Shown here: positions 18,731 through 32,816 of the stretch, one piece after another | Numbering within the stretch: position 1 is the stretch's first letter | Layout: every line of letters starts with the position of its first letter | Assembly: GCA_022447525.1 (NCBI GenBank) | Contig: JAKVBA010000003.1 | Span: 43,346-93,608 of the forward strand | Source: Gammaproteobacteria bacterium | Lineage (GTDB): Bacteria; Pseudomonadota; Gammaproteobacteria; Arenicellales; Arenicellaceae | Length of the DNA: 50,263 bases | Reading direction: 5' to 3' | Made by a program: the position numbers and the translations under genes | Notes under the pieces: model-generated | The model's database searches: none | Told to the model about the DNA's origin: nothing | The model's input: only the letters and a program-made list of their open reading frames with translations

Positions 18731-20851
18731 ATGTTTAGACAATTGTTAAAACTTGGTGTGTCCATTGGCGTTTCATTCGCTATAGTGGCATTGTTGTTGC
18801 AGATGGTGAACTCAGGGATAGAGGACGCTGATCGGCCTAGTGTTTGGGCAGCCTTACAAAACACCTCTTCGTCATATATCGTTATTTTCGTTGCTCTTTT
18901 CTTATTAGCATTGGTATTCAGAGCGATTAGATATCGCATGTTGCTGCAATTAAGCGGAGAAGCTAATGTGCCAGCATTGCGACAAATGTGCTTAATAACT
19001 GGCATCAGAAATATGGTGGTAGACATGCTGCCAGCCAGACTCGGCGAGTTGGGTTATGTTGCTCTGTTAAATCGAGGCTACGGCGTCAAGCTTGAGCACT
19101 GTGTGAGCTCCTTGACGATAAGCTTGGCTTTCGACTTTATCGGATTGTTAACAGTTGTAGCGGGAATAGTTTTGTATCAATTTACTGGCGACGGAGTACA
19201 GGGCTGGGCTATTGGGACAATGCTTATGGCGACCATAGTATCGCTAATAGCATTTATCGGGCTGTTTAAAATAACGCCTTGGTTTACCAAAGTCGTAACC
19301 GATCGATTCGGTACTCTGTGGTCAGATGAGTCATTTAAAGCTAAGGCGCTTGTCTTGTTGCAGAAATTTTCCAGCAGTTTGATGAGCGTACATAATGGCG
19401 GCAAAACTCTTTCTATTCTCTCGATTTCCATCTTGATAAGGCTGCTGAAATATCTCGGTCTCTTTCTTCTATTTAAGGCTGTGGCCGAACCAACATTTGA
19501 GTCGCTCGCAGAACTGCCCTCAACTCATGTATTAGGCGCTTTAATCGGCGGTGAAATCGGGGCAAGTTTGCCAATTCCAACATTCATGAGTTTTGGTGCT
19601 TATGAGGCAGGCGGAGCATTGATTTTTCAATTACTTGGTGTGATTGATCAAGGGTCTGCTTTCGTTACTCTTCTTTGTGTGCATATTTGGAGTCAACTAA
19701 TGGAATATACGCTTGGTGGTTTTTTATTGGCAGTATTCATTCTGCTAAATCGTAAGGGTAAGAGAGCGGCATTAGTAGCGGAGGCTGTGGGTTCTGAGGC
19801 TAGAGCGAAATTCATTGCTATCGCTTCATTTGTTGGGGCGGGTATAACTTTACTTGTGGGTACCGGCTTTTTGGGCTATCAGCTTTGGGCCGCCAGCAAA
19901 CTGGGCTCGGTGTCTGCTCCTGATGCTGGTGGAACCGCCGAAAATATCGAGGATTGGAGGGCTCTATCTAAAGAATACGTGACTAGTTTAAATGGCTTTG
20001 TTGTATTTTCCTCAAATAGAGACGGAAATCACGATATCTTTAAGCTTAACTTAGCTAATTTCGAGCTTGATAAACTCACCAGGCACGAACATACTGAGAC
20101 ATATCCGCGTATTTCGCCAGACGGTAATCGAATTGTTTTCTCTCGTGCTCATCAACCATGGGTGTCGCAACGCAATACGGTTGCATGGGACATCTACATG
20201 CTTGATTTGAATACAGGTACAGAAAAGCAAATTGGCCAACAGGGAACTGCTCCTCGTTGGATCAATAACGAAGAAATCACGTACCTTCACAAAGGCGACC
20301 GGGTTCAGAAAGTCAATGTAAATACCTTAGCAACTGAGACTGTGTTTCAAAGTGGCCTAGGCAACATGATGCCGCCGAAATCACCATTACAAAACCCCAC
20401 ATATAATCCATTAAAAGATTCGCTCGCATTCACCGCAAAGCAGGCTCACATAGGAACAAACACAGGTCACTGGGGTACTGCTCTTTCCTTTGGAAACAAA
20501 ATCAAAGGGGTGATGAATGGGTGTGAACTGGCATGGTCCACAGGCGGTGATTATCTATACCAAGTTAACCCTGACGCCGAATCATTGAGAATCATGCGAA
20601 TCGATCCAGATAGTCTGGAGAGCGAAACGATGATCGATTTAGATGGAGAATTCAGTCACGAGTATTGGCCAAAAGATTCCTTTAATGGGGAATACATGGT
20701 CTTTGGTGCCAGTCGTGGCCCTAAAGATCACGAGCATGACACCAAAGATTACGAAATCTTTTTATGGAAGGTCGGCTCTGCTTCTTCGAAAGCTACCCGG
20801 TTAACTTTTCATACTGGGAATGATAATTGGCCTGATGTGTTTATTCGTTAA
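18731..20851 (+). CDS. UPF0104/flippase-like membrane domain fused to periplasmic beta-propeller
   Basis: A 706-residue two-part protein. Residues 1-345 are a lysylphosphatidylglycerol-synthetase-type membrane domain (UPF0104) with the diagnostic DMLPARLGELGYVALLNRGY (about 98-117) and LPIPTFMSFGAYEAGGALIF (280-299). A last helix (about 360-386) leads outside to residues 420-706, a TolB/PD40-like beta-propeller (FVVFSSNRDGNHDIFKLNL, YPRISPDGNRIVFSRAH, later WPDVFI). UPF0104 domains are linked to lipid flipping or lipid-linked substrate transport. The propeller probably binds a ligand or protein on the periplasmic side. The fusion is seen directly in one uninterrupted frame; the function is inferred. 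Confidence 0.8.
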   Translation: MFRQLLKLGVSIGVSFAIVALLLQMVNSGIEDADRPSVWAALQNTSSSYIVIFVALFLLALVFRAIRYRMLLQLSGEANVPALRQMCLITGIRNMVVDMLPARLGELGYVALLNRGYGVKLEHCVSSLTISLAFDFIGLLTVVAGIVLYQFTGDGVQGWAIGTMLMATIVSLIAFIGLFKITPWFTKVVTDRFGTLWSDESFKAKALVLLQKFSSSLMSVHNGGKTLSILSISILIRLLKYLGLFLLFKAVAEPTFESLAELPSTHVLGALIGGEIGASLPIPTFMSFGAYEAGGALIFQLLGVIDQGSAFVTLLCVHIWSQLMEYTLGGFLLAVFILLNRKGKRAALVAEAVGSEARAKFIAIASFVGAGITLLVGTGFLGYQLWAASKLGSVSAPDAGGTAENIEDWRALSKEYVTSLNGFVVFSSNRDGNHDIFKLNLANFELDKLTRHEHTETYPRISPDGNRIVFSRAHQPWVSQRNTVAWDIYMLDLNTGTEKQIGQQGTAPRWINNEEITYLHKGDRVQKVNVNTLATETVFQSGLGNMMPPKSPLQNPTYNPLKDSLAFTAKQAHIGTNTGHWGTALSFGNKIKGVMNGCELAWSTGGDYLYQVNPDAESLRIMRIDPDSLESETMIDLDGEFSHEYWPKDSFNGEYMVFGASRGPKDHEHDTKDYEIFLWKVGSASSKATRLTFHTGNDNWPDVFIR

Positions 20852-20863
20852 ACTTTCACTGGC

Positions 20864-21853
20864 TTAAATTTCCAACATCTCATTTACATCGGTGGTACCG
20901 TTTCCACCGGGTGCAGTGGCTCCGCCGACTGCGTATACTTTGTTACCTATTTTTCCAGCACCAATTCCATGTCTTGGAGTTGGCATATCTGGCATTGGGG
21001 TCCATTCATCTTTACTCAGTGAATACCGCCAAACATTTTTGAACACACCGGATTTAGGAACGAAGATCTCTCCGCCGAACACGATTATTCCATCATCCAC
21101 TGAGACACTAGCAGTGCCTGCCTGTGGTAAAGGAAGTGGTTTTGCATCACGCCATCGATCTTCTTTTTTATCGTAGATATGGGTGGCATTAAAATTGCAA
21201 GCTGCATTGCGTCCGCCAGTAATAATCAATTGATTGGAGGCCCAACCCCCTGCGGCTGAATTTCGAGGCAGGGGCATAGGTGCTGCGGATTCCCATTTGG
21301 TTGAACTGGGTTCCCAAACTAAATGCCTACTAACTTCAATGTGGTGGTGACGTTCGGAGTTCTTTTCACTTCTTGGGGATTGACCTGATACTAAATGAAT
21401 TTGTCCTTCGTGACAGGTGAGTACACCCTCTGCTTGAGGCTGCGGTAGGTTAGTTAGCTCAACCCATTTATGGTCTACATACTCGTAAACTCGATCTCGC
21501 ATTTTCCAAACATGCCTATAGCTTCCATTAAATCCCCCCACTAGAAACAGTCTATCGTTGCAACTTACCAGCGCGGCATGGTGCAGATCTTCAGGAAGCC
21601 TTGATTCCTCATGCCACAGATCGTCCTTTGAGGAATAGCTAAAAAAGCGATCAGTAAAATAGCGAATCCCAAATTTAGAGGCTATTCCACCGGCCACATA
21701 AATTCGATTTTGGTGAACCGCAGGATATAGCTATTGAGTTTGTATTGGAATAGATGCTTTTTGGATCCAGTTTTTAGACGAGTTTGCTAAGGATTTTTGT
21801 GAATTGGCAATAAATACCAAAGATCCGCCAATAATAAAATAGCGACGCTTCAT
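20864..21853 (-). pseudogene. Exported Kelch-repeat protein interrupted by an amber codon
   Basis: The frame reads from ATG 21853 (AGGA 8 bases upstream), giving a signal-like N-terminus (MKRRYFIIGGSLVFIANSQ), then NWIQKASIPIQTQ. A TAG stop at 21733-21731 (codon 41) follows, and then the same frame continues without shift: LYPAVHQNRIYVAGG and at least five Kelch repeats (LVSCNDRLFLVGGFNGS, ASVSVDDGIIVFGGEIF, GIGAGKIGNKVYAVGG). Kelch blades normally carry Q-E-L/I-Y-P here, so a GAG-to-TAG change is the simplest explanation. Restart at GTG 21697 would give a 277-residue protein lacking the signal and first blade. Full length would be about 329 residues. It converges with the flippase-propeller gene 12 bases away. 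Recent inactivation, sequencing error or readthrough are all possible. Confidence 0.8.
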
Positions 21854-22698: not shown

Positions 22699-23760
22699 TT
22701 GCAGATTTTGAACTTTTCCTTAGCTCATTTATTCAGTGCCATAGCGCTCTCTCAACTTTGTCTGTTGTTTGTTTTGTTGTCTATTGGAATAACGACGGTA
22801 GATAAGACCCGACTGATTCTGTTGGTTTTTGTTTCTGGAGTGATTGCTTATGTGTTGGGTCCGTTCCTGCAAAGCGAGTGGGCAATTCAAATACATATGT
22901 CCTGGCAGACTTTAGTTCCCGGAACTCTGTGGCTTTTTTGCGGGAGTTTGTTTGACGATGAATTTTCATTAAGTGCGTCAAAATTTAGTTTAGTAGTTTG
23001 CACAGTTTTACCTCCCACTATTGCAAGAGCACTTGGGCTCAGCGCAGATGGCTGGCAGTTCTTGGTACTATTTGCTCTTCCGCAGGCTTTGGAGTTTTTA
23101 TTAATGGCGTGGGCAATTTTTTATGTTTTACGAACCTGGAGGGACGATCTGGTTCAGTCTCGAAGAGATTTGAGATTGTGGTTTTGTCTTTTTGCTGGTG
23201 GCTATAGCTTTTTATTAATATTGATTAGGGAAGTTGTCTTTCCTAATGCTCAATGGTGGCAAGACCTGCAGTTTGTGTGGGTTGCTTGTGCGTGCATAGC
23301 AGTAAATCTATTTCTTTTGAGACCGAAGGTCGGACAGCTTGCGTTTAGTGAAATGTCTCAATTGAAACAGCAACCGCGATCTAGTGTAACAGACGAAGGT
23401 AATGATAAGACTATTGCTAAACTAGCCGAACTGATGGAGAACAAGAATCTTTATCGACAAATGAGTTTGACGATTGGAGAAGTAGCAGAGAAAGTCGAAT
23501 GTCCCGAACACCAACTTCGAAAGGTGATCAATCAAGGTCTGGGTTATCGGAACTTTAATGGATACCTAAACCAATACAGGGTGGCAGAAGCATGTCGAAA
23601 ACTCGCTGATAACAGTAATCCCAACGAGGCAATTCTTAATATAGCGTTGGATGTAGGATTTCGTTCGCTCAGCTCTTTCAATACCGCCTTTAAAGCTAAA
23701 ACAGGAAAAACCCCTACTGAATACAGAGAAGATTCGCTGACGAATTCTGAAAAAGCATGA
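22699..23760 (+). CDS. AraC-family regulator with N-terminal membrane domain (second copy)
   Basis: A 353-residue protein with about six to seven hydrophobic helices in residues 1-215 and an AraC DNA-binding domain in about 250-347 (LTIGEVAEKVECPEHQLRKV; ILNIALDVGFRSLSSFNTAFKAKTGKTP). It shares architecture with the regulator at 15246-16268. The start is unusual: no ATG fits, TTG 22699 is the best codon, and the strong GAGGAGGA lies about 14 bases upstream, which is long. It immediately precedes the cytochrome operon on the same strand and is a reasonable candidate regulator for it. Confidence 0.82.
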   Translation: MQILNFSLAHLFSAIALSQLCLLFVLLSIGITTVDKTRLILLVFVSGVIAYVLGPFLQSEWAIQIHMSWQTLVPGTLWLFCGSLFDDEFSLSASKFSLVVCTVLPPTIARALGLSADGWQFLVLFALPQALEFLLMAWAIFYVLRTWRDDLVQSRRDLRLWFCLFAGGYSFLLILIREVVFPNAQWWQDLQFVWVACACIAVNLFLLRPKVGQLAFSEMSQLKQQPRSSVTDEGNDKTIAKLAELMENKNLYRQMSLTIGEVAEKVECPEHQLRKVINQGLGYRNFNGYLNQYRVAEACRKLADNSNPNEAILNIALDVGFRSLSSFNTAFKAKTGKTPTEYREDSLTNSEKA

Positions 23761-23838: not shown

Positions 23839-24486
23839 ATGTTCAGATTACGGTCTTATTGTTGCTTTGTGATGCTCTTCTGCGCTTCGGCGTTATCAAA
23901 CAGCTCAGTGTCAGCGAATGACGCTAGCAAGGACTATCAAAAAGTATGCGCCGCATGCCACGGAGAGAATGCCAGCGGGGTCGCCGGACTGAATTCACCC
24001 GCGCTGGCGGGTCAACAAGCGGACTATATCGTCAGGCAAGTAGCTCTATATCAACAAGGTATTCGAGGTAAGCAAGATGGCTATGCAGCACAAATGGCAG
24101 CGATCTCTACTACACTTGAAAGTCAGGGAATTGATGAACAAAGGCTCAATGACATAGCGGACTATTTAAGTAGTATGCCGAGCCATAAGAATAGTGTCTC
24201 GGCGGGTGATGCCGCATTGGGATATAAGCAATATCAATCAAGTTGTGGTGGCTGTCATGGCGACAAAGCTCAAGGCAATAAGAGCCTAAATTCACCCAGG
24301 CTTGCAGGGATCGATCCTCAATATTTAATGCGGCAATATTTATATTATGTCGAAGGTAAGCGAGGATTGGATAAACGTAATCGCTTTGGTCGTCAAATGG
24401 CCATGATGGCACAAACGGTCAGGGACCCTCAAAAAATCAGGGACGTGTTTGCCTATATTTCCTCTATAAACTCAGAAAGTGATTAG
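23839..24486 (+). CDS. Di-haem cytochrome c4-like protein
   Basis: A 215-residue periplasmic electron carrier. It has a signal peptide (about 1-27) and two homologous cytochrome c domains: CAACH (C37, C40, H41) and CGGCH (C136, C139, H140). Each domain has a downstream methionine in an RGKQDGYAAQM- or NRFGRQM-type context that can be the sixth haem ligand. This is the c4 pattern. Such proteins pass electrons between membrane complexes and terminal oxidases or peroxidases. It overlaps or abuts the di-haem peroxidase gene directly downstream, which it probably feeds or drains. Confidence 0.9.
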   Translation: MFRLRSYCCFVMLFCASALSNSSVSANDASKDYQKVCAACHGENASGVAGLNSPALAGQQADYIVRQVALYQQGIRGKQDGYAAQMAAISTTLESQGIDEQRLNDIADYLSSMPSHKNSVSAGDAALGYKQYQSSCGGCHGDKAQGNKSLNSPRLAGIDPQYLMRQYLYYVEGKRGLDKRNRFGRQMAMMAQTVRDPQKIRDVFAYISSINSESD

Positions 24487-24491
24487 TGGAC

Positions 24492-25709
24492 ATGATAAAA
24501 AACCTGACAAATAAATTTCTAATCCTAAGTTTGTTGCTACTCATTGCTGTTACTGAGGGACATACAGATGAAGTAGCCAAAAGAGACTTTGCGCTAAAAG
24601 ATTTTTGCCCACAAGGTTTTGGCATTGATGAGGATGGTCTTTGCAGGCTGAAAACACTTTATCAATTTTATTCCTCAACTCAGGGGAGAGGTGTTGGGGG
24701 TACGCAAACCTCTTTGCCTGCGCATCGTGATGGCTTCACGCCACAACAAATAGATCTTGGACGTTACTTATTTTTCGACCCGATTTTGTCTTCAAGTAAA
24801 ACCGTTTCTTGTGCAACCTGTCATCGGCCTGAGAAAGGATTTACCGACGGTCTCGCCGTATCTCGAGGACCCAATGGTGTACGCGGGATGCGTTCTGCTC
24901 CTTCGCTTTGGAACTCGGCATTTCTGACAACATTCAATTGGGACGCCAGTGCCAATTCATACGAACAACAAGTGCAAACACCGTTGTTTTCGGAACTAGA
25001 AATGAACAATAGTCCTCAGCAACTTTTGGCTGATTTGCGTCAAAATGATACTTACCGACAGCTTTTTAATGTGACTTTTGTGGATGGCATAACGCTAAAA
25101 AATATCTACACAGCGCTTGCTGCGTTTCAAAGCTCGTTGATTTCTTTAAATAGTCGTTACGATCAATATGCTCATGGAAATCACGATGCGCTGAGTAAAG
25201 AGGAAGTAGAAGGGTTGAATGTTTTTCGCTCCTTTGTAGCTCGATGCTCTGAGTGTCACACCCCCCCCTTATTTACTAATAATCAAGTGGCGGTGATCGG
25301 CGTACCAGAAATAGATAATAGGCCATTTGATATCGGTGCGGAAAACACCTTTGATCTACGTAAGTTGCGTGGTGGGTTTAAGGTGCCTACTTTGAGAAAT
25401 ATCTCAAGCACAGCGCCATATATGCACAGAGGTAACTTCTCTACCCTGCGTGAGGCTACCGAGTTCTACAATAAAGGACGAGGTCACGCTATTCCAGAAA
25501 ATAATCATTTGTATATCCATTGGCACATCACCTCGCCTGATCTGCAAGATAATGAAATCGATTTGCTGGTGACTTTTATGAAGTCTTTAAGTGACGAGCG
25601 ATTTATGCCGGAGCTACCAACTGAGGTTCCTAGCGGCCTATCGATTGAAATTGTTACTGATTACAAACATAAATCAACCGGGTCATTTAACACAGCCCTA
25701 AACCATTAA
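24492..25709 (+). CDS. Di-haem cytochrome c peroxidase / MauG-family protein
   Basis: A 405-residue exported protein (ATG 24492; GTG 24486 overlaps the preceding stop and is less likely). It has a signal peptide, then a short cysteine-bearing segment (CPQGFGIDEDGLC) not typical of minimal peroxidases. The first haem motif is CATCH (near residues 107-111) in LFFDPILSSSKTVSCATCH, and the second is CSECH (near 252-256), followed by the family-typical APYMHRGNFSTLREA. Family members reduce H2O2 (CcpA) or oxidise protein residues (MauG). Which applies is not decided by sequence. Its place between cytochrome c4 and a haem-bearing beta-helix protein suggests either could be its redox partner or substrate. 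Confidence 0.88.
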   Translation: MIKNLTNKFLILSLLLLIAVTEGHTDEVAKRDFALKDFCPQGFGIDEDGLCRLKTLYQFYSSTQGRGVGGTQTSLPAHRDGFTPQQIDLGRYLFFDPILSSSKTVSCATCHRPEKGFTDGLAVSRGPNGVRGMRSAPSLWNSAFLTTFNWDASANSYEQQVQTPLFSELEMNNSPQQLLADLRQNDTYRQLFNVTFVDGITLKNIYTALAAFQSSLISLNSRYDQYAHGNHDALSKEEVEGLNVFRSFVARCSECHTPPLFTNNQVAVIGVPEIDNRPFDIGAENTFDLRKLRGGFKVPTLRNISSTAPYMHRGNFSTLREATEFYNKGRGHAIPENNHLYIHWHITSPDLQDNEIDLLVTFMKSLSDERFMPELPTEVPSGLSIEIVTDYKHKSTGSFNTALNH

Positions 25710-25722
25710 TGAGGAAAAAGGC

Positions 25723-27261
25723 ATGAAGATGAAAATTATAGCCTTATTGGCAGTCTTAGCCGCGGCCTTTGCCGGACACCATTTCGGAAAAAAGTCTGCT
25801 GTTGCAAACAGTATTCCGGTAACCCAAGTTGAGAAGAGTTTTACCGGAGGCTATAACTCAGAACAGGATGAGGACCTGCAAGCCAAGCAAGAGACTTTGG
25901 ATGGTCCAGCAGGAATAGCAAACCAATCTACGGTGATTGTCAGGCAAGGTCAGTCGATACAGGAGGCGGTTAAAAATGCCCAACCAGGCACAACGATTCG
26001 AATAATGCCAGGCACTTATAGTGAGACCGTATATATCGATAAGGATAGTATTCATCTCATCGGAGTGATTAAGGAGGGCAAGCGTGCACGCATGGATGGT
26101 CTCGGCAAACTAAATGATGCAATTCTCTATTCTGGCAACAACGTTGTGGTCGAAAACCTTTACATTACTGGCTACAAGGGCAATGGCATAATGGGCCAGG
26201 CTGGCAATAATTTTGAAATCAGAAACAATATAATTGCTGATACTGGTGTTTACGGAATCTTTCCCCAGTTGGGTAAAAACGGGATTGTTGAGCATAATGT
26301 CATATCTGGTATTGAGGATGCAGCGATCTACATCGGCATGAGCGACAATATTCATGTTGCCCACAATGATGTGTTCGATTCAGTGGCTGGTATCGAAATT
26401 GAGAATTCACGTCACGCTATCGTGGAGAACAATTTTGTGCACAATAATACCGGTGGCATCCTAGCGTTTATCACGCCTGGTTTGCCAATCAAAACGACTT
26501 ATGACGTGATCATCAGAAACAACTGGATATCAGGGAATAATCATCCAAATTTTGGCGCTCCTGGCTCCACGGTGGCGGGTATACCAGCGGGCACGGGGGT
26601 GTTAATAATGGCGGCTGATCAAGTCATTGTCGAAGACAATATAATTTCCGACAATAAGACAGCGGGCATCCTCATTGTCGATCACGCCAATGCCGCAAAC
26701 ATCACGGCTGATCCAGAGTCTGAGCCAAATCCAGACAGCGTTGCTGTCTTAAACAATACGATGTTGAATAATGGTTACGACACTATAGCTGAGGTTAAAG
26801 CTCTAATGGCGTTGGAGTTTAAAACCGGCAGTCCAGACGTTGTGCATGTAAGTGAGGGTAAAGACAACTGTATATTAGATCAGTCACAGTATGTTGTGGC
26901 TGGTTTGAAAGACTTTGCAGTATGTGACTTTACCAATACCGATGAAGTCGAAACCTACCTGCTAGATGAACCAGTTGCCCCCCGAAAAATTGCGGCAAGT
27001 GATAGGGGTGAAATTGCCTACCTGGGAGTATGCACGGGTTGTCATTCCTATAATGGTCGTTTGATCGGTCCATCCGTGCAACAGATCCAAGCCCTCTACT
27101 TTGAGAATCCAGAAGGCCTGGCCGCCTATATTGCTAATCCAGTCAAAAAAAGAGAGGATTACCCCGAGATGCCATCACAGTCTTATTTGGGTGAGGAGAC
27201 ACTCAAGGCGGTGGCTAACTATGTACTTGCCGTGGAAAACAAGTCCATCGAGACGCACTAG
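25723..27261 (+). CDS. Parallel beta-helix protein with C-terminal cytochrome c domain
   Basis: A 512-residue exported protein. The N-terminal hydrophobic segment (MKMKIIALLAVLAAAFAG) is a signal or anchor. Residues about 65-330 form a right-handed beta-helix of the NosD/Pel type: QSIQEAVKNAQPGTTIRIMPG opening, then repeated turns such as NNFEIRNNIIADTGVYGI and DNIHVAHNDVFDSVAGIEI. Residues about 425-510 are a single-haem cytochrome c domain: CTGCH (C437, C440, H441), a GP turn (RLIGPSVQQI) and Met483 in YPEMPSQ as likely sixth ligand. The helix part recalls the parallel beta-helix family often found beside cytochrome genes. It starts 13 bases after the peroxidase gene with GAGGAAAAAGG upstream. 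No pectate-lyase catalytic set was recognised. Confidence 0.85.
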   Translation: MKMKIIALLAVLAAAFAGHHFGKKSAVANSIPVTQVEKSFTGGYNSEQDEDLQAKQETLDGPAGIANQSTVIVRQGQSIQEAVKNAQPGTTIRIMPGTYSETVYIDKDSIHLIGVIKEGKRARMDGLGKLNDAILYSGNNVVVENLYITGYKGNGIMGQAGNNFEIRNNIIADTGVYGIFPQLGKNGIVEHNVISGIEDAAIYIGMSDNIHVAHNDVFDSVAGIEIENSRHAIVENNFVHNNTGGILAFITPGLPIKTTYDVIIRNNWISGNNHPNFGAPGSTVAGIPAGTGVLIMAADQVIVEDNIISDNKTAGILIVDHANAANITADPESEPNPDSVAVLNNTMLNNGYDTIAEVKALMALEFKTGSPDVVHVSEGKDNCILDQSQYVVAGLKDFAVCDFTNTDEVETYLLDEPVAPRKIAASDRGEIAYLGVCTGCHSYNGRLIGPSVQQIQALYFENPEGLAAYIANPVKKREDYPEMPSQSYLGEETLKAVANYVLAVENKSIETH

Positions 27262-29731: not shown

Positions 29732-30499
29732 ATGGCAGAATTAGTAGAACTGTCACCAGAATCTCATGGTGACCTCAAATTAGACACGGCGGCAGCAGTA
29801 AAAGTTGCTAAAAATACTCATATCTTAAGTTTAAGGGTTACCGAATTGAGCCGAGCAGCCTGTGAGATGCCCATTTTTTTGACCGAGTCTCAGCAAGATG
29901 GTGCTATCGTCATTTCGGCGATTACTTCCTTGGAAGTAGAAAAGAATTTATTGGTCAGAGATGAAAAGTGGAAGGGTATTTTTCAGCCCACCTCGATGAT
30001 GACATATCCCTTTTTTCTGATGAAACATCCATCTCAAGAAAATCAATTTACTATTGGTATAGACCCCGAGCATAAAGCGTTTTCAAAAGAAGAGGGTGAG
30101 CCTTTATTCGATGACGATAACAAAGCAGGGCCGCGTTTGTCTCAGGTTACGAAAATCCTTGAGCAAGACATGAGGAATGATATTCATACCTTCCAATTTT
30201 GTAAGGCAATTAATGAATTAGGTCTTATAAAGCCGATTGATGTGGCAGTTGCCTACGAGGGTGGCAAGGTAAATAAGCTGAAAGGATTGAATACGATAGA
30301 TGAAGCTAAACTAGCTGATTTGTCTGAAGAGCAATTTGCTGAGCTCAGGAAGAAAAATTACTTAGCACCAATTTATTCTCTGCTCATATCACTCTATCAG
30401 GTCAACAATTTGATTCGATTACACAATCAATTCGGTGAGGGAGAGAAAATATTACAAGCTTCCATGAACGTTGAGAAAGACGAGAGTGCCGCTGCTTAG
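29732..30499 (+). CDS. SapC family protein
   Basis: A 255-residue soluble protein with the SapC family pattern: NTHILSLRVTELSRAACEMPIFLTES near the N-terminus, then WKGIFQPTSMMTYPFFLMKH and an acidic EGEPLFDDDNKAGPRLSQV. The family is named after a gene beside a Campylobacter S-layer locus. In many aquatic Proteobacteria it accompanies TonB receptors and tryptophan-halogenase-like genes; its biochemical role is unknown. Here the expected halogenase neighbour is only a remnant, while SapC itself is intact and followed by its own terminator. Confidence 0.85.
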   Translation: MAELVELSPESHGDLKLDTAAAVKVAKNTHILSLRVTELSRAACEMPIFLTESQQDGAIVISAITSLEVEKNLLVRDEKWKGIFQPTSMMTYPFFLMKHPSQENQFTIGIDPEHKAFSKEEGEPLFDDDNKAGPRLSQVTKILEQDMRNDIHTFQFCKAINELGLIKPIDVAVAYEGGKVNKLKGLNTIDEAKLADLSEEQFAELRKKNYLAPIYSLLISLYQVNNLIRLHNQFGEGEKILQASMNVEKDESAAA

Positions 30500-30520
30500 A
30501 GCGTCGTTGTTTTTACCATT

Positions 30521-30556
30521 AAAACGCCTTCTCGTATCCGAGCAGGCGTTTTTTAT
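30521..30556 (+). terminator. Rho-independent terminator after SapC
   Basis: The outer stem AAAACGCC/GGCGTTTT (30521-30528 with 30545-30552) stacks on an inner stem CTCG-TATC-CGAG (30531-30542), and the 3' arm runs into T's. It is a clear intrinsic terminator that separates SapC from the TonB receptor gene. Confidence 0.85.
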
Positions 30557-30677
30557 TGTTTATAGATTTCTTTCTTTACTAATTAAATTGATATAGAGCC
30601 GCCAGTTAACATCATAGTCAAGTTATAGCTGCTATTCTCTCTAGCTCTAAAGCAAAGCAAAAAGTCTGTCTATTTCT

Positions 30678-32816
30678 GTGAATACTTTCAATAAATTTTC
30701 CACCTTGATTTTCACCACTTTGATTTCCATCATTTTACATGGCGGAGGCATGAACGTGATTTACGCTAGTGAAGAAATCAAAGCACCCAGTGTCGCTTTT
30801 AAAGACCCGAGTTTAGAAGAGATTGTAATCGTCTCGACTCGATCAAAGTTAGACATTTTACAAGCTCCGTCAAATGTTTTCGTGCTAGGTCTTTCGCAGT
30901 TACAACGCACGCAAGCTGAACATGTACAGCAAGATTTAAATCAAGTACCAAGCGTGAGTTTACAGCGCGGTGACGGTCAAGAGTCTCTACCGGGAATAAG
31001 AAGCGCTGTTCTTACCGGCGCTGGAGCCTGCGGTAATGTTTTGGTTATGGAGGAGGGCATACCGGTTAGGGGGCCTGCTTTTTGCAACGTAAATGAACTA
31101 TTCGATACACATTTTGAGCAAGCTAGCCAGCTAGAGGTAGTCAGAGGTCCTGGCACAGCGTTTTACGGTTCTAACAGCCTGACGGGCAGTGTGAACGTTA
31201 TATTACCCACGTCTACGATTCCCTCTGTTTCTTTTGAGCTTGGAGCCGATAATTATAAAAGACTAAAAGCGAGCTTTGCTTACGCAGGGCACGATAGCAC
31301 TACCTCGGAAGGTGCGATATATCTTACTAGCACCGACACTGACTCATTTCGCGATGACGCAGGTTACAGACAACATAAATTAAGTTGGAGAGACAGTCGT
31401 CAGTATGGCGACTGGCGAGCGTCAAGCGGCTTAACTGCAACCTACCTTGATCAAGAAACTGCCGGTTTCATTGTTGGCAAGGATAGCTATTTGGATGAGG
31501 AACTTTCCAGTAAAAATCTTGATCCTGAAGCGTTCAGAAAGACAAGTTCAATAAGATTATGGAGTAAACTCAGCCGAGACTTGGAGCAAGGCAGAAGTGT
31601 CGAGGTAACCCCGTATATTCGGTCAACTGATATGGATTTTAGACTCCATTTCCTACCCGGTGACCCACTAGAGCAAAACAAACAAATCGGTTTTGGCTGG
31701 CAATCTGCATACAGGCAAGCGATCAGTTCTGAGTTCAAAATTGCTGCTGGTATCGATGCAGATTTCTCGCGAGGAGAGTTGCGTCAAACTCAAGACGAGC
31801 CAACTCGAGGATCCGCTTTTTTACAGGCGACCATCCCTGTTGGTACCCATTATGACTATCGGGTCGATGCGCAGCAATTAGCGGCCTTTGCGCATCTAGA
31901 TTGGATGCCAACTCAAGACCTCAGTGTTATCGGCGGTGCCAGGTTTGAACGATTGGACTATAAATACGACAATTTCGCTCTCGATGGGCGGACCCGTGAC
32001 GATGGCACGGTCTGCGGGTTTGGTGGGTGTAGGTATAGTCGTCCTGCCGATCGAGACGACTCGTTCTCTGATATCTCACTGAAATTAGAAGTAAAGTATC
32101 GGCAAACGGACAATTTGAATTTTTACGCCGCCTTATCTGAATCCTTTCGTGCCCCGCAGGCGACAGAGCTTTATCGTTTGCAAAGGAATCAGCAGGTAGC
32201 CGATCTAGACAGTGTCAGCGCGAACAATATTGAGGCTGGTTTTATTTATCGAAGTGGTGCTTTGGATTTTGCCTTTACTGTTTATCAGCTTGATCAGACC
32301 AATGTCATCATCAGAGATAGTGACTTCTTCAATGTTGATGGTAATCGGATTGAGAGCAAAGGCTTAGAAATGGCGCTTAAGAACACCTTGTCTGACTCAT
32401 TGCGACTCAGGATGGCTGCTACTATTGCCGAACACAAATACGCAACAGATCAGATCACCAACGGTATAAACATTAATGGTAATACCGTTGATACTGCACC
32501 GAAGCGCCAACTTAATACGGCCCTTATTTGGAGCCCTACTGACAGGCTAAGTGCCGAATTGGAACTAATGCACGTTAGTGAATATTTTTTAGAGCCTGAG
32601 AATCTGCGCACTTACCCCGGACATGAGGTACTCAATCTTAGAGCAGACTATCAAATGAACGATCGTTTTTCGATTTTTGCTCGTTTGCTCAACGCCAGTG
32701 ATAAACGATATGCTGAACGGGCTGACTTTACCGGATTTACCGGTGAGCGCTATTTTCCTGGCGCCCCTCGTAGTTTCTTTTTTGGTTTTAAGTACGATTT
32801 AACTAACGTTCAGTAA
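30678..32816 (+). CDS. TonB-dependent outer-membrane receptor
   Basis: A 712-residue receptor. A signal peptide (to about residue 31, VIYA) is followed by a TonB-box-like EEIVIVSTR, and a plug domain with ALTGAGACGN-like loop, VNELFDTHFEQASQLEVVRGP and GTAFYGSNSLTGSVNVI. The rest is a beta-barrel ending FFFGFKYDLTNVQ. Two cysteines in the plug (GACGNVL, PAFCNVNE) and two in a barrel loop (VCGFGGCRY) could pair. It imports a scarce compound using TonB energy; substrate unknown, possibly linked to the adjacent SapC/halogenase-type locus. The start is GTG 30678, because ATG 30750 would delete the signal peptide. Confidence 0.9.
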   Translation: MNTFNKFSTLIFTTLISIILHGGGMNVIYASEEIKAPSVAFKDPSLEEIVIVSTRSKLDILQAPSNVFVLGLSQLQRTQAEHVQQDLNQVPSVSLQRGDGQESLPGIRSAVLTGAGACGNVLVMEEGIPVRGPAFCNVNELFDTHFEQASQLEVVRGPGTAFYGSNSLTGSVNVILPTSTIPSVSFELGADNYKRLKASFAYAGHDSTTSEGAIYLTSTDTDSFRDDAGYRQHKLSWRDSRQYGDWRASSGLTATYLDQETAGFIVGKDSYLDEELSSKNLDPEAFRKTSSIRLWSKLSRDLEQGRSVEVTPYIRSTDMDFRLHFLPGDPLEQNKQIGFGWQSAYRQAISSEFKIAAGIDADFSRGELRQTQDEPTRGSAFLQATIPVGTHYDYRVDAQQLAAFAHLDWMPTQDLSVIGGARFERLDYKYDNFALDGRTRDDGTVCGFGGCRYSRPADRDDSFSDISLKLEVKYRQTDNLNFYAALSESFRAPQATELYRLQRNQQVADLDSVSANNIEAGFIYRSGALDFAFTVYQLDQTNVIIRDSDFFNVDGNRIESKGLEMALKNTLSDSLRLRMAATIAEHKYATDQITNGININGNTVDTAPKRQLNTALIWSPTDRLSAELELMHVSEYFLEPENLRTYPGHEVLNLRADYQMNDRFSIFARLLNASDKRYAERADFTGFTGERYFPGAPRSFFFGFKYDLTNVQ

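Follow-up and report, generated by a model that had tools for sequence, protein, structure and literature searches.

The window analysed here, a stretch of 50,263 nucleotides from a gammaproteobacterial genome (contig JAKVBA010000003.1), contains 3 consecutive haem protein genes. Two of these, encoding a di-haem enzyme of the cytochrome c peroxidase (CCP)/MauG family and a TIGR03805 beta-helix protein fused to a cytochrome domain, form a conserved core, whereas the third, encoding a c4-type cytochrome, is a frequent companion. The tight and reciprocal pairing of the enzyme and the beta-helix protein suggests that they act together. Tentatively, and stopping short of calling it probable, we favour the reading that they constitute a dedicated periplasmic oxidation couple, apparently unstudied and comparable to other MauG-like enzymes that have a partner of their own. 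The genes of the unit and the regulator gene that precedes them are as follows.

22699..23760, + strand: AraC-type regulator whose N-terminal part is hydrophobic as read from the sequence (Pfam HTH_18, 2.5e-15)
23839..24486, + strand: c4-type di-haem cytochrome c carrying a signal peptide (two CXXCH motifs; Pfam Cytochrom_C, 7.1e-21)
24486..25709, + strand: di-haem enzyme of the CCP/MauG family, whose second haem has the MauG-type Tyr328 (Pfam CCP_MauG, 2.4e-50)
25723..27261, + strand: TIGR03805 beta-helix protein with a C-terminal c-type cytochrome domain (Pfam Beta_helix, 5.9e-21)

A preliminary description of this DNA had reported 3 haem protein genes arranged head to tail with almost no spacing and carrying 5 CXXCH motifs, and both the open reading frames (ORFs) and the Pfam matches agree with it. 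On the + strand, the c4 ORF (23839-24486, 215 amino acids [aa]) overlaps by 1 base with the enzyme ORF (24486-25709, 407 aa, with a GTG start or an ATG at 24492), which is separated by 13 bases from the beta-helix ORF (25723-27261, 512 aa). CXXCH-type DNA motifs number 10 in the whole window versus 3.49 expected, with 10 or more found in 0 of 100 shuffles, and 5 of the 10 are in frame within the 3 ORFs (2 in the c4 gene, 2 in the enzyme gene and 1 in the beta-helix gene). Pfam Cytochrom_C matches the c4 protein in 2 stretches. Judging from sequence and structure models, all 3 proteins are predicted to carry export signals. The AraC-type regulator gene, not mentioned in the preliminary description, ends 78 bases upstream of the c4 gene, on the same strand, and is probably the local regulator of the enzyme/beta-helix unit; promoter and terminator scans gave signal at chance level. 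Gene calls throughout are longest-ORF calls, and spurious frames occur in G+C-rich loci. The genome of the window (3.6 Mb, 96.5% complete) contains a single match to the beta-helix protein.

A scan of genome contigs yielded 443 pattern matches, 407 of which are relatives of the beta-helix protein, and the best-scoring 80 were kept as loci for comparison. By their record titles, they come from about two dozen genera, including Colwellia, Thalassotalea, Paraglaciecola, Rheinheimera, Halioglobus and Steroidobacter. In 79 of the 80 loci, the gene immediately before that of the beta-helix protein is the enzyme gene; the exception, L131, begins 204 bases from the end of its contig. A c4 gene is found within 400 bases upstream of the enzyme gene in 73 loci (68 by clustering). 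Four of the 7 c4 misses are at contig ends (L060, L078, L125 and L131). No c4 gene adjoining the enzyme gene was found in L066, L116, L124, L150, L168 and L169; a 130-aa frame with a weak c4 match in L168 has no CXXCH, and L047 lies near a contig end, with just 875 bases preceding the enzyme gene. The trio as an obligatory unit was rejected, given the 6 loci in which no c4 gene was found beside the enzyme gene.

Within the genus of the window, the beta-helix gene is present in 11 of 18 genomes; in every case in which the contig covers its upstream side, it is preceded by the enzyme gene, and the flanking genes often differ. An order-level search (E ≤ 1e-30) revealed relatives in 11 of 109 genomes, each of which is one of the 18 members of the genus. 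Nevertheless, the unit is not an oddity of this genus, given the 407 relatives in the contig scan and the cases outside the class of the window. At the phylum level, the beta-helix profile (E ≤ 1e-50) matched 12 of 398 genomes, 7 of them with full-length proteins including the cytochrome part. The enzyme profile, run on a phylum draw of the same size (398) with the same genome labels, matched exactly those 7 at E ≤ 1e-190, with the next match dropping to 7.7e-74, and the 2 genes are adjacent by coordinates in all 7. The remaining 5 matches are shorter beta-helix frames, and the 3 that were read (L151, L152 and L154) adjoin another two-CXXCH protein. In a second class, that of genome G781, the full beta-helix protein is encoded in 3 of 289 genomes, including, once more, G781, with the enzyme gene adjacent in all 3 and no c4 gene found in the stretches read. 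The pair is also adjacent in L047, a distant relative from the class of the window (51% and 47% identity). On the megaplasmid of the alphaproteobacterium Ruegeria pomeroyi DSS-3 (L155), genes for an AraC-type regulator (on the opposite strand), a two-CXXCH cytochrome c, the peroxidase, a tetratricopeptide repeat (TPR) protein and the beta-helix protein follow each other, the TPR gene (L155 7850-8926) lying between those of the peroxidase and the beta-helix protein. Outside the class of the window, 3 of the 4 loci read are without c4.

Synteny and reciprocal presence reject a chance grouping. The survey of the three-gene neighbourhood across genomes, called for in the preliminary description, gave a widely conserved unit rather than genes rarely adjacent elsewhere: the enzyme gene precedes the beta-helix gene in all loci but 1, c4 is present in most, and the pair is adjacent in every one of the 7 phylum genomes. 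The preliminary interpretation is thus partly supported: the unit is real and conserved, although c4 is not an obligatory part of it (none having been found in L150, L168 and L169, among others). Its suggestion that the beta-helix part serves as substrate or scaffold and that its haem relays electrons is hypothetical. Because the wider draws keep the pair while c4 is often missing, we regard the former as the core and the latter as its companion.

The enzyme is related to, yet distinct from, characterized di-haem enzymes. Its best NCBIfam model is MbnH (TIGR04039; 210.8 bits, below the cut-off of 362.85), followed by MauG (TIGR03791; 175.2 bits, below the cut-off of 443.85), and all 39 relatives in the enzyme alignment match both models at E ≤ 1e-10 (best values of 1.5e-69 and 7.4e-61, respectively). 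The top Foldseek match of the structure model (mean predicted local distance difference test [pLDDT] score of 77.3, N-terminal helix at residues 4-24) is 6e1c, titled MauG-like protein associated with microbial copper homeostasis, which we take to be MbnH. Tyr328 aligns with position 294 of MauG (3l4m), that is, the place of MauG Tyr294, whereas the classical peroxidase 1iqc has a Met at this place. Tyr328, W152, E172 and H345-W346-H347 are invariant in 78 of 78 enzymes (that of the window and those of 77 of the 80 loci). W152 and E172 are the invariant Trp and Glu at the usual places for the peroxidatic haem and align with those of 1iqc. Thus, the enzyme shares with classical bacterial di-haem CCPs the fold, the 2 CXXCH motifs and the aligned Trp and Glu, but differs from them in the Tyr replacing Met, in the invariant HWH and in an extra N-terminal region with 2 invariant Cys. 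With MauG it shares the CCP_MauG fold and the Tyr at the second haem, but its score is well below the cut-off and the adjacent genes encode the AraC-type regulator, c4 and the beta-helix protein, mau genes not having been searched for. Unlike in the case of MbnH, the genes adjoining the enzyme gene are those of c4 and the beta-helix protein rather than MbnP, TIGR04052 not having been searched genome-wide.

The HWH motif (residues 345-347, window 25518-25526) is absent from the nearest enzyme outside the clade in the phylum draw. Five distant enzymes (L047, L150, L155, L168 and L169) also have HWH, together with the Tyr in an FY motif. The Tyr is not unique to the enzyme clade, the more distant G489 enzyme having it in LFYNRGG, without HWH.

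This Tyr gives the enzyme its likeness to MauG, which supports the relationship assumed in the preliminary description; from its aligned position the residue may act as a MauG-type haem ligand. According to the available text of PMC6405878, bacterial CCPs are Met-His ligated, MauG and BthA are Tyr-His ligated, and BthA reduces H2O2. Because BthA does so, Tyr ligation is no proof of a protein substrate. These features bear on ordinary H2O2 reduction or peroxide respiration, in which c4 and the haem of the beta-helix protein would donate electrons to a di-haem peroxidase. The CCP_MauG fold with the invariant W152 and E172, the c4-type neighbour in 73 of the 80 loci and the precedent of the Tyr-ligated BthA all agree with such a role, but the Met of the classical enzymes is absent, and the regular, highly conserved beta-helix partner as well as the TonB receptors near the unit (see below) are left unexplained; we consider this explanation quite unlikely.

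The beta-helix protein scores 179.6 bits against TIGR03805, over the cut-off of 141.5, and all 40 members of its alignment match this model at E ≤ 1e-10. Its beta-helix part is better conserved than the enzyme, with mean identities to the window of 78% and 61%, respectively. The structure model (mean pLDDT of 83.2) comprises an N-terminal helix (residues 2-23), the beta-helix (about 70-405) and a less certain haem domain. The C-terminal cytochrome domain (about 421-505) is borderline by Pfam (21.6 bits versus 21.3, and 21.8 versus 27), but C437, C440, H441 and M483 are invariant in 81 of 81 sequences, in line with the earlier proposal that the protein has a c-type haem site of its own. In the window and close relatives the protein seems to be anchored in the membrane, a clear cleavage site being absent.

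Among solved structures, the sequence relatives of the beta-helix part are only weak and are carbohydrate-active beta-helix enzymes (best 2.4e-07), and the best structural matches are likewise carbohydrate epimerases and lyases. With VIA-align, alginate epimerases come first (AlgE6, 5lw3; Z 32.0, root mean square deviation 2.4, 284 residues aligned), other matches including NosD (Z 27.9) and AlgG (Z 27.6). What is shared with NosD, AlgE and AlgG is the right-handed beta-helix fold, and a shared fold by itself shows no function. All 81 sequences have YGxFPQ at residues 177-182. This motif, in a region outside the sequence alignment with AlgE4, may correspond to the epimerase motif YGxDPH, with its catalytic Asp and His; if so, the AlgE4 motif would not be kept at that place. 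The fold has many invariant polar residues, of which Y177, D199, Y203, E225 and E227 are common to haem-bearing and haem-less TIGR03805 members, whereas M157, M206, K257 and D320 set the haem-bearing group apart (7 versus 9 sequences compared). Met157 and Met206 are invariant in 81 of 81.

The two Met residues would suit NosD-like handling of copper or another metal, with a metal site in the beta-helix needing redox priming by the enzyme. The protein also matches NosD_copper_fam (TIGR04247; 2.6e-16, 59.2 bits), in addition to the fold likeness. However, the cut-off of that model (300) is not reached, likeness of fold shows no function, and nothing at the loci supports a link to metals, copper genes near the unit not having been searched for. 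We judge metal handling very improbable.

A different role for the beta-helix protein, and the main rival to an oxidation couple, is maturation of the MauG/MbnH type, in which the enzyme would oxidise one or several residues of the beta-helix protein, Tyr rather than Trp, yielding a protein-derived cofactor or a metal site. MauG oxidises its partner protein (PMC6405878, available text), and SACCP is possibly the modifier of MopE (PMC3621798, available text). The pairs MbnH/MbnP (TIGR04039/TIGR04052), SACCP/MopE and CorB/CorA likewise consist of a MauG-like di-haem enzyme and a dedicated neighbour protein, and the available text of PMC3621798 places such pairs sometimes near a TonB transporter. 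In addition to this precedent, maturation would fit the MauG-type Tyr in 78 of 78 enzymes, MbnH as the best NCBIfam model, 6e1c as the best Foldseek match and the Tyr at 8 positions of the beta-helix protein (99, 177, 203, 390, 412, 443, 459 and 488) in 81 of 81 sequences. On the other hand, no well conserved Trp was found in the beta-helix protein (best column 37 of 81), 3 of the 8 conserved Tyr belong to the haem domain, and two others, Y177 and Y203, are shared with haem-less members of the family whose partner is a different one. The enzyme, moreover, is far below the MbnH and MauG cut-offs, and BthA indicates that Tyr ligation alone is not diagnostic (PMC6405878, available text). The partner also sets the unit apart from the 3 precedent pairs, being a beta-helix protein fused to a cytochrome and having no well conserved Trp. 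Thus, the MauG precedent invoked in the preliminary description survives in the Tyr, whereas a simple copy of it is opposed by the lack of a conserved Trp, by BthA and by an unrelated di-haem partner found elsewhere (see below). Overall, we regard maturation as unlikely.

The other TIGR03805 members at the loci read have no CXXCH or haem of their own and are encoded beside a two-CXXCH protein. For L052 and L054 a model assigned this partner to the SO2930 family (TIGR03806), as did the existing annotation for a Novosphingobium plasmid. Profile comparison of SO2930 proteins with the enzyme revealed no convincing match (hhalign probability of 18, around 1 CXXCH). Because the SO2930 proteins are not convincingly homologous to the enzyme, one beta-helix family would have 2 unrelated di-haem partners. 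The window locus is not a TIGR03805/TIGR03806 pair, its neighbour being CCP_MauG rather than SO2930-type; TIGR03806 was not found in the window genome, although the control of this search gave no signal either. The 2 kinds of pair resemble each other in the beta-helix family, in the di-haem neighbour and, in L054 and on the Novosphingobium plasmid, in an adjoining TonB receptor, but the partners lack convincing homology and the beta-helix proteins of the TIGR03806 pairs lack CXXCH. A TonB receptor lies beside the haem-less pair in L054 (by similarity), L156 (by annotation, on the Novosphingobium plasmid) and L052 (by eye only), and the plasmid-borne pair sits among AldDH, AdhP, TonB receptor and AraC genes.

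Genes near the haem-bearing unit include a TonB receptor in 52 of the 80 loci, the commonest extra neighbour. The main receptor type is represented by 54 genes in 51 loci, with 46 of them at positions -3/-4. A relative of the AraC-type regulator is located upstream on the same strand in 35 loci (36 by clustering). Aldehyde dehydrogenase is encoded by 9 genes in 8 loci, 7 of them at +1/+2 and 6 of these on the same strand, and a Zn alcohol dehydrogenase gene lies downstream of the unit in L017, an ORF with a similar start being present in L023.

In the oxidation couple that we favour, the enzyme would use H2O2 or O2 to form a high-valent di-haem state at the first haem, and the Tyr-side haem would hand the oxidising power to the docked beta-helix protein. 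Y177, D199, Y203, E225 and E227 might hold the substrate on one face of the beta-helix, and a small molecule bound near these and other invariant residues would become oxidised. The haem of the beta-helix protein, and c4 where present, would exchange electrons with the respiratory chain, c4 probably acting as an electron shuttle. In favour of the couple are the conserved pairing in the 80 loci and in the wider draws, the cohesion of the unit amid changing flanks within the genus, the high conservation of the beta-helix part and its structural likeness to carbohydrate epimerases and lyases, and the similar neighbours of the haem-less Novosphingobium pair. A small organic compound entering through the outer membrane would be the likeliest substrate, since no other extra neighbour is as common as a TonB receptor and since aldehyde or alcohol dehydrogenases recur. 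This choice is the weakest step of the proposed mechanism.

Several observations weigh against the couple as outlined. The counts of accessory neighbours have no random-locus control and count related species separately, and the 80 loci are biased to close relatives, at least 6 of them (L059, L060, L061, L062, L066 and L069) being on the same contigs as loci of the genus. No receptor lies directly beside the trio in the window, where the nearest one (30678-32816) is 3 ORFs of at least 150 aa away and not of the main type, and no TonB receptor is annotated in 19 kb of the Ruegeria locus. Aldehyde dehydrogenase is limited to 8 of the 80 loci. Finally, conservation of the 5 residues that might hold the substrate extends to TIGR03805 proteins that have no MauG-like partner.

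Other features were observed around the unit. In the window, a SapC-family gene followed by the above TonB receptor gene occupies 29732-32816 on the + strand, the receptor being 56% identical to one near the trio in L016. In 2 genus members, genes for the aspartate decarboxylase PanP and a TonB receptor are located upstream of the unit (L016 5144-9074 and L018 4468-6597); PanP was assigned by model in L016, a similar protein is encoded in L018, and in the latter the interval from PanP to the enzyme gene has no c4 gene. A recurrent gene, 1 to 4 places downstream of the unit in 13 of the 80 loci (e.g., L083 10553-12133), encodes a histidine-kinase-like protein of about 526 aa. Further upstream in the window, 18731-20851 (+ strand) encodes a 706-aa protein combining a lysylphosphatidylglycerol-synthase-type membrane domain with a PD40 beta-propeller repeat match, and 20864-21697 (- strand) a 277-aa Kelch-repeat protein that matches mutarotase-type models at scores under the cut-off.

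Literature searches, in a library without most subscription journals and with some papers judged by title or abstract, revealed no paper on the enzyme/beta-helix unit and no published function for TIGR03805. Known substrates are rare among MauG-like di-haem enzymes. In the present unit, synteny across about two dozen genera fixes the partner, which reduces the substrate question to an experiment with 2 proteins. It is conceivable, if somewhat unlikely, that the unit is a new periplasmic machine, in which a MauG-type enzyme works on or through a beta-helix cytochrome, giving either a Tyr-derived redox or metal cofactor or a platform that holds the substrate and is connected to the respiratory chain. 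If so, the unrelated di-haem partner found elsewhere would turn the combination of a beta-helix with a di-haem protein into a general theme. Study of the unit would be a first way into TIGR03805, and into the question of what the linked TonB receptors import, in a gene set carried by many marine bacteria.

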